Origin: Halobellus litoreus
GTDB taxonomy: Archaea > Halobacteriota > Halobacteria > Halobacteriales > Haloferacaceae
Direction: 5' to 3'
Assembly: GCF_024464595.1 (NCBI RefSeq)
Contig: NZ_JANHAW010000004.1
Span: 1-64,000, forward strand
Length of the DNA: 64,000 nt
A model generated the notes under the pieces. It was given only the letters and a program-made list of their open reading frames with translations, did no database searches and was not told the origin of the DNA. The position numbers and the translations under genes were made by a program. Shown in pieces: positions 2,448 to 8,201 of this stretch; position 1 is the first letter of the stretch, and every line of letters begins with the position of its first letter.

Positions 2448-2504
2448 TGAACTACCCCTGCCTACTCACTCGCGGCGTAGCCGCTCGTTCCTTGAGGTAG
2501 GGGC
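2448..2504 (-). other. Right-end hairpin of the TnpB element (possible guide-RNA 3' region)
   Basis: Overlaps the last codons of tnpB. It contains the inner palindrome GCGGCGTAGCCGC and an outer CCCCTGCCTAC / GAGGTAGGGG pairing. In IS200/IS605 elements the 3' end of tnpB and the right end encode the omega/re-RNA that guides TnpB. A related motif lies upstream of the element at 3955-4012. Confidence 0.45.
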
Positions 2505-3717
2505 TTCCTGCTTCCACGACGCGCTTTGCAGATACAGGTGTATCCACAGGGAGCGCAGTCTCCACAGGCGTTCCTTCGGAGTGACCCACTCCTAGGTCGG
2601 TGAGTCCGCGAGAAAGAATGTTCCACGCCGCGTTTGCGTCTCTGTCCGCCTCGAAGCCACAGGCGGGGCAGGAATGTTCACGCACCCACAGCGGTTTGTC
2701 GGTTTCGACGCCACACTGAGCGCACTCTTTGGTGGTTCCTTCGGGTCCAACTTTCACGAAGTGCGTGCCTTGCCGCCCACACTTTGTTTCGAGCATATCG
2801 GTGAAGGTGTTCCATGCTGCCGACGCCGTATTGCGGCTGTTTCGTGGCGACTCCAGCATCCCTTTCACGTCGAGGTCTTCGACCGCGACAAGTTTGTACT
2901 CCCGAGCGTAGTAATTCGAGAGTTTGTGCAGGAAATCACGCCGCTTGCGCTTGATTTCGAGATGGCACTCAGCTACACGTCTACGTTGTTTCTCCCAGTT
3001 GTTTGACTGGTACTCTTTGCGCGAGAGTTTCCGCTGTTCCCGTTCAAGCCAGCCACGTTCTTCCGAGAGATCAAGTGATTCGACCGCTGTGCCGTCTGTA
3101 TCGTGAGTATACCTCAGAATCCCCACGTCGATGCCGACTACCTCCTCGGCGTCGATCTCCTCCAGCGGTGGCTTGGCTGGTGGTTCTGTGTCCATCTCAA
3201 TACCGAAGATGGCGAACCACTCGCCGGTTTTCTCCTTTTTGAGTGTGACTTCTTTGACTGTGGCGTCGTCAGACAACGGTCGGTGGAGTTCGATGGGGAT
3301 GTCTGCGAGTTTCGACAGCGACAACACGGTCTGACCACCCTTCTTGTCGAGTTCGAAGCCGGACTGGTTGTAGGTGAAACTGCGGAATTCCCGAGGTGAC
3401 TTCCACCGAAGTTCACCGACCTTGTAACCCTGCTCTTTGAGCTTCCCGAGTGCTTTGACGTTTTTCGCAATCCGCATAACGGTAGGCTGAAGCACTTTCG
3501 AGTACACGTCGGTAAGTGCGTCCCACCAGTCTTTGAGGGCGGGAAGCTCATCACGAATCTGCCGGACACGCTGTTTGACTGTGCCATCGGATTCGGGAAT
3601 CTGGTTGAAGCGGTATAGGACGTGGTTGTAGAGTTGTCTACAGGTATCGCGGTGGTAGTCCAGCGTCTCACGCTGGCGTTCAGTCGGCTTAAGGCGATAC
3701 CTGTAGTTGTAGTTCAT
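2452..3717 (-). CDS. tnpB: TnpB, RNA-guided nuclease of an IS200/IS605 (IS1341-type) element
   Basis: 421 residues, full length. The RuvC-like catalytic acids are present: Asp in VGIDVGILRY (about residue 193), Glu in LVAVEDLDVKG (about 279), and Asp in EADRDANAAWN (about 360). A Cys4 zinc ribbon, CAQCG then CPACG, lies before the last Asp, and the N-terminus MNYNYRYRLKPTERQ is typical. TnpB uses an RNA from the element's right end to cut DNA and so maintain the transposon. No TnpA transposase is adjacent, as in IS1341-type elements. The small DUF2080 gene sits three bases upstream. Confidence 0.93.
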   Translation of the reverse strand: MNYNYRYRLKPTERQRETLDYHRDTCRQLYNHVLYRFNQIPESDGTVKQRVRQIRDELPALKDWWDALTDVYSKVLQPTVMRIAKNVKALGKLKEQGYKVGELRWKSPREFRSFTYNQSGFELDKKGGQTVLSLSKLADIPIELHRPLSDDATVKEVTLKKEKTGEWFAIFGIEMDTEPPAKPPLEEIDAEEVVGIDVGILRYTHDTDGTAVESLDLSEERGWLEREQRKLSRKEYQSNNWEKQRRRVAECHLEIKRKRRDFLHKLSNYYAREYKLVAVEDLDVKGMLESPRNSRNTASAAWNTFTDMLETKCGRQGTHFVKVGPEGTTKECAQCGVETDKPLWVREHSCPACGFEADRDANAAWNILSRGLTDLGVGHSEGTPVETALPVDTPVSAKRVVEAGSPYLKERAATPRVSRQG

Positions 3718-4612: not shown

Positions 4613-4936
4613 TATATCTGAGGTTCCATTCCACTAGTCTAAAGGTTTCTCGTCGCCTGGCCAGTTGCGGATCTGTCGTCGGAGTGCTGTGGGCGAGAAA
4701 CAGTTGCAGGATGGGGTTACACACGCGAAAGAGGCATCCACGCTCAGTGTAGCTTCAAGCCTGAAACTGTGAGTCCTCGTGGCCGATATTCACCTGCCAA
4801 ATACGTGGAACTTCTCTGACGCCGTGCGAGATACAGGGTGTGAGTCTTGCACGACGTTCTGCGAAAATAACGGGCAAAGGGCATCAATCGGTACAGTCAG
4901 CATAAGCAGTTGCCTGAAACCCACGACGGATCGAAA

Positions 4937-4950
4937 GTTAATACATATAT
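4937..4950 (+). promoter_or_regulatory. TATA box of the TFS-like gene
   Basis: GTTAATACATATAT ends 27 bases before the ATG at 4977, fitting a leaderless transcript and supporting that start over earlier in-frame codons. Confidence 0.5.
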
Positions 4951-4976
4951 CCGACACTCGTGTGTTCCTATTTTAT

Positions 4977-5294
4977 ATGCAATTCTGTGACGAGTGTGGT
5001 TCGCTGATGCACACGGAGGGCGACACGTGGGTGTGTCGCTCCTGTGAGCACGAAGAGCCGCGGGATTCGCAAGCAGAGGCGGCAATGGCAATCCAAGATG
5101 GACAGCAGGACGATGGGGCACCCGCCGTGGCCGACGCGACCCAGGGCTCCACTGAGACGATGCAGGAGTCCTGTCCGGCTGAGGACTGCGACAGCGACCG
5201 GGCCTACTCCGAGATGATGCCGAAGCCGGGCGGCTCCTACGAGGTTCGGCTGTTCACTTGCGTCGAGTGCGGCCACAAGTGGCGCGAGTCCTGA
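4977..5294 (+). CDS. Transcription factor S paralogue lacking the catalytic acidic pair
   Basis: 105 residues with two zinc ribbons: CDECG...CRSC at residues 4-27 (RPB9-like N-terminal ribbon) and CPAEDC...CVECGHKW at 68-102 (TFIIS C-terminal ribbon). Archaeal TFS enters the RNA polymerase secondary channel and uses an Asp-Glu pair on the second ribbon's hairpin to stimulate transcript cleavage. At the aligned place this protein reads KPGGSYEVR where active TFS has RSADE or RAADE, so both acids are missing. It should bind polymerase but not promote cleavage. Sulfolobus TFS4, which also lacks the acids, inhibits polymerase. Confidence 0.85.
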   Translation: MQFCDECGSLMHTEGDTWVCRSCEHEEPRDSQAEAAMAIQDGQQDDGAPAVADATQGSTETMQESCPAEDCDSDRAYSEMMPKPGGSYEVRLFTCVECGHKWRES

Positions 5295-7039: not shown

Positions 7040-7163
7040 AGGCCGTCGTCGACCACTTTGTGGACGTCTCGCAGTCATCTTGCTCGAAACAGATGGCGAG
7101 ATCGTCGACGAGATTATGCTTGATCGTTCGGAGCTCCCTGCTGGCGTGCGCACAACCTGCTGA
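7040..7163 (+). pseudogene. DUF3006-like fragment, frameshifted
   Basis: One frame gives EAVVDHFVD, and a second, shifted by one, gives LAVILLETDGEIVDEIMLDR then SELPAGVRT and a stop at 7161. Together they match the usual VVDRFE-DLAVLLLE-DGE-VDE-RSELP order of small DUF3006 proteins. The N-terminus and C-terminus are missing. The last codons run into the duplicated module at 7.14 kb, as if the copied segment had inserted here. Confidence 0.45.
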
Positions 7164-7181
7164 CGCTACTTTCGTGAATTG

Positions 7182-7373
7182 TCACTTATCGCGTACACTA
7201 GGCGGGAGAAATCGCGGCTTCTCGCGCTCACTGTCGTCGTACCACAGCACATCGTCACCGGCCTCGATGTTGTAGCAATCAGCGATCTCGGTCGGGACCG
7301 TGATCGTGTAACTGCCGTTTGCCCCCTGGATGCCGCGCGTATCCGCGAACAACTCTGTCAAGGACTTCGACAT
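7182..7373 (-). CDS. AbrB/MazE/SpoVT-type DNA-binding protein
   Basis: 63 residues. The core GSYTITVPTEIADCYNIEAG then DDVLWYDDSE is the swapped-hairpin fold used by AbrB-family regulators and MazE antitoxins. It is divergent from the 7555/7851 gene pair. An equivalent but frameshifted copy stands in the same place beside the first pair at 1.6 kb, so this regulator belongs to the duplicated module. Autoregulation of the divergent promoter region is likely but inferred. Confidence 0.8.
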   Translation of the reverse strand: MSKSLTELFADTRGIQGANGSYTITVPTEIADCYNIEAGDDVLWYDDSEREKPRFLPPSVRDK

Positions 7374-7554
7374 ATCTATCCAGTCACTTGGAACTCACTT
7401 GATCCCTGTTAAGACAGCAACTTCCCTATGAATCCAATAGGTCCCAATTGAGTCTCCGGCGATTGACTGGCTACATAATCCTTGGCTCCTGACACCAGAG
7501 TATGCTGATCCCAATCAATATCCCCTTGTACCCCACTCAACTGGGTGATGCACG

Positions 7555-7851
7555 ATGATCGACTGCGTGACACTCACGGACTCCGGGGAATACTACACTA
7601 TTACGGTCCCAGGGAAGATGCTCCGCACAGCTGGGCTCTTGGTCGAAGAAGTTGAAGATGCGACGCTCCAGAACACTCATTTGGCGGTTGATGATCCAAC
7701 GGTACTCGTACAACTCGATGAATCGGAGGGGGCCCTCACGATCCAACTCCCCGACCCGCCCGAGAATGTTCCTGACCCCAATGTCGAAAAGCCGACGCTC
7801 ACAGATGTCGAACAAAAAGTTCTCGAGCAGGCTGATGCCGGGGCGGACTGA
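7555..7851 (+). CDS. AbrB-like swapped-hairpin protein of duplicated module (copy A2)
   Basis: 98 residues, paralogue of the gene at 1763. YYTITVPGKMLRTAGLL near residue 13 is the AbrB-like hairpin. LDESEGALTIQLP and PTLTDVEQKVLEQADAGAD are shared almost exactly with copy A1. Its stop overlaps the next start by one base. Role unknown; probably DNA or partner binding. Confidence 0.7.
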   Translation: MIDCVTLTDSGEYYTITVPGKMLRTAGLLVEEVEDATLQNTHLAVDDPTVLVQLDESEGALTIQLPDPPENVPDPNVEKPTLTDVEQKVLEQADAGAD

Positions 7852-8201
7852 TGCGCGAGGAGATCCCAGTGCCGATCCAGAGTCTACCGGCGTACGGCTT
7901 GCGGTTACGGAGTCAGCAGAGCCACGCCCTGCATCGATTCCCGGACTCTGACCCTTCTTCTCCGACAGCGGCCATCCCAGAGTGTGTCGTACACGGCGAT
8001 TCTGGGGCACCACTCTCCGACGATCCCTCGGACTACTGCCGCGCGAAACTTGATTTGACGGTTCGCTCCCGTCGATACTCGCTGTGTTCTCGCCCGTCGT
8101 GTTTCGGCCGGCTGTCGGCCGTCGATGGCGTGACGTGGGAGAAGGTGGCAGCCGGCAATCCGTCTGTAGCTGATGCCGTCCGACCGGCAGACGCTGATTG
8201 A
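7851..8201 (+). CDS. Unrecognised protein of duplicated module (copy B2)
   Basis: 116 residues, the same length as copy B1 at 2059. MREEIPVPIQ and LCSRPSCFGRLSAVDGVTW are conserved between them, while the middle (residues 35-65) has diverged. That pattern points to a functional core in the Cys-containing C-terminal half. There are no membrane segments and no signal peptide. Family unknown. Confidence 0.65.
   Translation: MREEIPVPIQSLPAYGLRLRSQQSHALHRFPDSDPSSPTAAIPECVVHGDSGAPLSDDPSDYCRAKLDLTVRSRRYSLCSRPSCFGRLSAVDGVTWEKVAAGNPSVADAVRPADAD

Follow-up and report, generated by a model that had tools for sequence, protein, structure and literature searches.

A haloarchaeal TFS paralogue family without the catalytic Asp-Glu pair: a candidate conditional regulator of RNA polymerase encoded by an accessory gene of Halobellus litoreus

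The window analyzed, a stretch of 64,000 nucleotides from Halobellus litoreus, encodes at positions 4977..5294 of the forward strand a paralogue of the archaeal cleavage factor TFS comprising 105 amino acids (MQFCDECG...CVECGHKWRES). The gene starts with the ATG at position 4977, and its stop codon ends at position 5294. The reading frame is open upstream to position 4779, and nearly all of 80 relatives, featuring 77–93% identity, start at the ATG corresponding to position 4977. The deduced protein exhibits the layout of TFS and TFIIS, namely a zinc ribbon at either end and a linker between them. The N-terminal ribbon (residues 1–23, positions 4977..5045, + strand) contains the cysteines C4-x2-C7 and C20-x2-C23 and matched the Pfam family Zn_ribbon_RPB9 with 36.6 bits (cut-off 25.2). 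It is followed by the linker (residues 24–65, positions 5046..5171, + strand) and the C-terminal ribbon (residues 66–105, positions 5172..5291, + strand), which contains C66-x4-C71 and C95-x2-C98, the first knuckle being of the CX4C instead of the CX2C type. The C-terminal ribbon carries the hairpin tip PKPGGSYEVR (residues 82–91, positions 5220..5249, + strand) with Gly86-Ser87 (positions 5232-5237, + strand) in place of the Asp-Glu pair, which is missing from this protein and from all other family members. The cysteine pattern thus confirms the original prediction that both ribbons are intact, and the replacement of Asp-Glu by Gly-Ser, likewise claimed there, is clear when the protein is aligned with the TFS types of the same genome.

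The score obtained for the Pfam family Zn_ribbon_TFIIS (15.1 bits) was below the cut-off of 21, as expected for an altered hairpin. Similarly, when the whole genome was scanned with the TFIIS ribbon family, three other genes were matched and the window gene was missed, as expected if the hairpin changed. The NCBIfam model TIGR01384 (TFS_arch) scored 40.4 bits and thus stayed below its curated cut-off of 64.75.

Two further TFS genes featuring the catalytic pair were identified in the same genome, at C2:556755-557066 (QIRSADESETRFFTC) and C1:440351-440668 (QTGSADEPPTRFFKC), and their products are referred to as C2- and C1-type TFS. The window gene being the only TFS gene of its genome, the finding that had been named as speaking against the original prediction, therefore did not occur. 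Further TFS genes were present in all 36 carrier genomes examined, 35 of which yielded three or more TFS matches in total, and all 40 sequences of the C1 and C2 types that were obtained from 20 of these genomes kept the Asp-Glu pair. In support of the original prediction, a clade consistently devoid of the acids thus coexists with other TFS proteins. Moreover, a 605-aa protein of this genome features a C-terminal TFIIS-like zinc ribbon with the Asp-Glu pair (L010, G000:C5:111581-111721; QLRSIDEPPTRLLSC). It represents an unusual fusion, located on a 123-kb contig, in which the preceding part appears OB-fold-like by eye.

In the alignment, the C2-type motif SADESETR corresponds to PGGSYEVR, with Asp replaced by Gly86 and Glu by Ser87; hence, the acids did not reappear on alignment, which was the other outcome considered adverse to the original prediction. 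The hairpin is one residue shorter than in active TFS. Glu89 of the paralogue corresponds to a Glu that follows the pair in the C2 type and, among the active types, is found there only; this fits descent from the C2 type. Among 91 distinct gene sequences, the ten-residue tip showed a single amino-acid change (Y88F), and its codons do vary synonymously; judged from these sequences, such invariance is more than chance. Lys83 is the only conserved basic residue of the tip, and the C-terminal ribbon is net acidic in the family (mean -2.6). Since transcript cleavage needs the hairpin carboxylates of the Asp-Glu pair (PMC5715097), the sequence indicates that cleavage activity was probably lost.

An AlphaFold2 model based on 52 family members was of moderate confidence (mean pLDDT 72, pTM 0.40) and informs on the folds within the ribbons, not on the placement of the ribbons relative to each other. 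The modeled C-terminal ribbon matched the corresponding ribbons of A12.2, Rpb9 and TFIIS with Z values of 5–6; values under 8 are weak when taken alone, and these agree with the sequence homology. Searching PDB sequences with the window protein retrieved RPC10 and RPB9 chains as best matches.

Upstream of the gene, a promoter block (CACGACGGATCGAAAGTTAATACATATATCCGACACTCGTG) is located at positions 4922..4962 of the forward strand and is conserved upstream of most relatives. It includes a TATA-like element approximately 30 nt upstream of the ATG, and the transcript is therefore probably leaderless. Across 20 genomes, the last 60 nt preceding the gene were 65% identical, as compared to 39% and 33% upstream of the two active tfs genes, and a minority of loci (L048, L056, L064, L085, L087) possesses another promoter type. 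The block occurs once in the genome, by which a regulon sharing it was ruled out. A candidate operator palindrome around the TATA box (CACG-N5-TCGGA ... TCCGA-N4-CGTG) was dropped because 34% of shuffled sequences were as good, which left conservation of the block as the sole finding.

Regarding the genomic neighborhood, no conserved operon partner was detected, as flanking ORF families, the gene itself aside, were present in at most nine of 81 loci. On the upstream side, conservation of the DNA mostly covers approximately 60 to 150 nt; downstream, some of the loci share up to approximately 380 nt, and this stretch contained no consistent ORF. A search for PADLOC defense families gave no match except a weak zinc-ribbon hit. 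Within the window, the gene is bracketed by two diverged copies of a module (positions 1519-2409 and 7146-8201) sharing 163 nt at 85% and 571 nt at 72% identity. The module contains an AbrB-like ORF and two small ORFs, with proteins 55% and 68% identical. A TnpB/OrfB-type IS605 gene is located upstream of the paralogue (positions 2452-3717, - strand). Furthermore, in loci L011, L016, L029 and L049, a hairpin-like sequence beginning with TACGGTTT starts directly 3' of the stop codon and perhaps represents the end of an insertion element at a preferred site.

In order to determine the distribution of the family, bacterial and archaeal genomes were scanned, and all 80 loci obtained belong to Halobacteria. 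The tip pattern was detected in 105 of 292 sampled Halobacteria genomes, representing 42 of 77 genera, nearly always in one copy, and in three of nine sampled genomes of the window's own genus. It was absent from all 101 non-halobacterial genomes among 120 sampled across this phylum. The paralogue is thus a widespread accessory gene of haloarchaea, present in about one third of them, and resides on chromosomes as well as on plasmids. Matches were obtained in 25 plasmid records, of which 21 were more than 80% identical, including three with the same broken copy of H. salinarum; the phage and viral collections searched contained no copies. Further broken copies are characterized by an in-frame TGA (G285 and G071), a lost start (L090) or a lost zinc cysteine (L036 and L040). 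The copy on Halobacterium salinarum pNRC200 (L092, the NRC-1 copy) is a pseudogene with a frameshift in the linker. It is joined before the tip to an apparent histidine-kinase fragment annotated as ATP-binding protein, and ISH8, ISH3 and ISH6 transposases are located nearby.

Selection was compared in 20 genomes harboring the paralogue and both active TFS types. Mean pairwise protein identity was 82% within the family, compared to 72% within either active type. For the linker, it amounted to 76% versus 53% and 62%, a difference that partly reflects the lower overall divergence of the family. The dN/dS ratio was 0.24 for the family, versus 0.22 and 0.24 in the two active types, indicating that purifying selection on the paralogue equals that on active TFS. 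Median dS was 0.36 for the family versus 0.86 for each active type. Moreover, distances within the family correlated poorly with those of the active types, at rho values of 0.24 and 0.27, compared to 0.50 between the two active types. Low dS, patchy presence and the lack of conserved neighbors point to a more recent, horizontal spread as a single gene together with its own conserved promoter. In the phylogenetic tree, all 21 family members formed one clade with full support, which is nearest to the C2-type active TFS and is separated by a stem branch of 2.18 changes per column; given this long stem, the tree supports proximity to the C2 type rather than an exact position inside it. Sequence comparisons hence describe a TFS family that is real, maintained by selection and specific to haloarchaea, and that lacks the catalytic pair.

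The closest known relative, C2-type TFS (G000:C2:556755-557066 and orthologues), shares with the paralogue the two-ribbon layout (53% identity in this genome), the FTCVECGHKWRE end, Glu89 as part of ESETR and the grouping in the tree. In contrast, the paralogue has Gly-Ser for Asp-Glu, a hairpin shorter by one residue, the CX4C knuckle and another linker, and it is accessory and horizontally spread. The original prediction proposed a haloarchaeal equivalent of TFS4 from Sulfolobales. Of this reading, the acid-less TFS paralogue in a clade of its own was sustained: both proteins are TFS paralogues that kept both ribbons, lost the catalytic acids and occur alongside active TFS. The equivalence itself was not upheld. 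Inhibition by TFS4 in Sulfolobus has been attributed to a shortened C-ribbon hairpin with 2–3 basic residues, the C-ribbon as a whole being strongly basic as well (PMC5715097, PMC8448823), whereas the paralogue has the single Lys83 and a net acidic C-ribbon, and its hairpin is shortened by one residue only versus approximately eight in TFS4. The TFS4 model NF047723 (TransFacS4) scored 28.3 bits (curated cut-off 120), and it is among haloarchaeal TFS proteins that the nearest relatives are found. Membership in TFS4 was rejected accordingly, the paralogue being of independent origin in Halobacteria, with no virus induction known. By analogy, the paralogue may nevertheless occupy the NTP-entry funnel, as was shown for TFS4, while standing outside the TFS4 family.

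Considering genome and sequence data together, we interpret the gene product as a TFS-derived RNA polymerase-binding factor that no longer promotes cleavage and instead regulates the enzyme negatively under certain conditions, a reading with a probability of roughly 0.5. The protein probably binds RNA polymerase and probably lacks cleavage activity, and it may have a net inhibitory effect. The N-terminal ribbon and the linker would dock on the polymerase lobe and jaw as in TFS, and the C-ribbon hairpin PKPGGSYEVR would enter the NTP-entry funnel. Here, the second magnesium ion would be left unheld without the carboxylate pair, so that cleavage would not be stimulated. The paralogue would compete with the two active TFS proteins for polymerase and, once its own promoter is switched on, polymerase would be slowed, paused or inhibited. 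This logic would be comparable to that of TFS4, Gfh1 or a cleavage-factor mutant with Asp-Glu changed to Ala-Ala. Cleavage factors without the pair (TFS1-AA, TFIIS-AA, TFS4) do impair transcription (PMC5715097), with the Ala-Ala variant of TFS1 impairing processivity in another manner than TFS4 (PMC5715097, PMC8448823). Gfh1 from Thermus offers an analogy as an inhibitory relative of a cleavage factor acting via the secondary channel (PMC5715097), but it is a coiled-coil protein of unrelated fold that works through acidic residues. The polymerase jaw gains strands from the TFS4 linker (PMC8448823), and a similar strand addition would fit the better conserved linker of the family. On the other hand, the inhibitory determinant of TFS4 (2–3 basic tip residues) is absent and the C-ribbon is net acidic, RPB9 exemplifies a two-ribbon relative on polymerase that neither cleaves nor inhibits, and no conserved operon or regulator gene was found. 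A role in virus defense is a possibility for which the present data hold no support; the literature search on expression of the paralogue, induction by stress or viruses included, retrieved nothing.

The RPB9 example leads to an alternative that we consider unlikely, although it is the strongest of the competing ones, namely a non-cleaving accessory subunit tuning elongation, fidelity or termination positively instead of inhibiting. RPB9 is a stable polymerase subunit that has lost the ability to cleave (PMC5715097), the top PDB matches are RPC10 and RPB9 chains, and the first C-ribbon knuckle is likewise widened in yeast RPC10. However, RPB9 is a core subunit with another hairpin, whereas the paralogue is accessory (105 of 292 genomes) and horizontally spread, and the PDB ranking may reflect the two-ribbon architecture only. 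A modulator borne by plasmids or mobile elements, redirecting host polymerase to the benefit of the element and not of the host, appears improbable. It would explain the patchy distribution, the 21 plasmid records, insertion-sequence genes near some copies, low dS with weak agreement with host divergence and a promoter traveling with the gene. Chromosomal copies exist as well, though, neither a linked conserved mobile-element gene nor virus or phage copies were detected, and haloarchaea swap chromosomal genes freely, so that horizontal spread alone is no proof of a selfish role.

Equally improbable is the reuse of the two-ribbon scaffold for another partner, with RNA polymerase no longer being the target. 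The very long stem and a linker unlike that of both active types favor this explanation, but the N-terminal ribbon and the C-ribbon end FTCVECGHKWR are close to active TFS, and the docking surfaces thus look kept. Cleavage might still be promoted by Glu89 and Ser87 replacing Asp-Glu, as Glu89 is invariant; yet this Glu is already present as an extra residue beside the pair in C2-type SADESETR and published work requires the Asp-Glu pair (PMC5715097), which leaves very little room for this view. A decaying duplicate without function is the least credible explanation: the few broken copies (H. salinarum pNRC200, G285, G071, L090, L036, L040) are opposed by purifying selection equal to that on active TFS and by the invariant tip, and decay can hold for single copies.

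Returning to the negative-regulator interpretation, its broadest version is tentative and rather doubtful: a second, independently evolved archaeal cleavage-dead TFS family, specific to Halobacteria and transferred from species to species as a single gene with its own conserved promoter, would restrain polymerase in molar salt by a PGGS hairpin rather than by the lysine tip of TFS4, and would be induced to slow global transcription in dormancy, under stress or against viruses. The existence of additional tfs genes in haloarchaea is in itself no novelty, since independent multiplication of tfs genes in Halobacteria was noted by Fouqueau et al. in 2017 (PMC5715097). No description of a mobile, invariant-tip family without the catalytic pair was found in the literature covered. 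If true, a polymerase-rescue factor would have been turned into something else, separately from Sulfolobales, in genetically tractable haloarchaea, and it would become apparent whether archaea in general use non-cleaving TFS paralogues to put a brake on polymerase. The tip being invariant in 91 sequences, the question is directly testable with point mutants. Current annotations name family members 'DNA-directed RNA polymerase subunit M' or 'RPA12/RPB9/RPC11 RNA polymerase family protein' and thereby conceal that the catalytic pair was lost.
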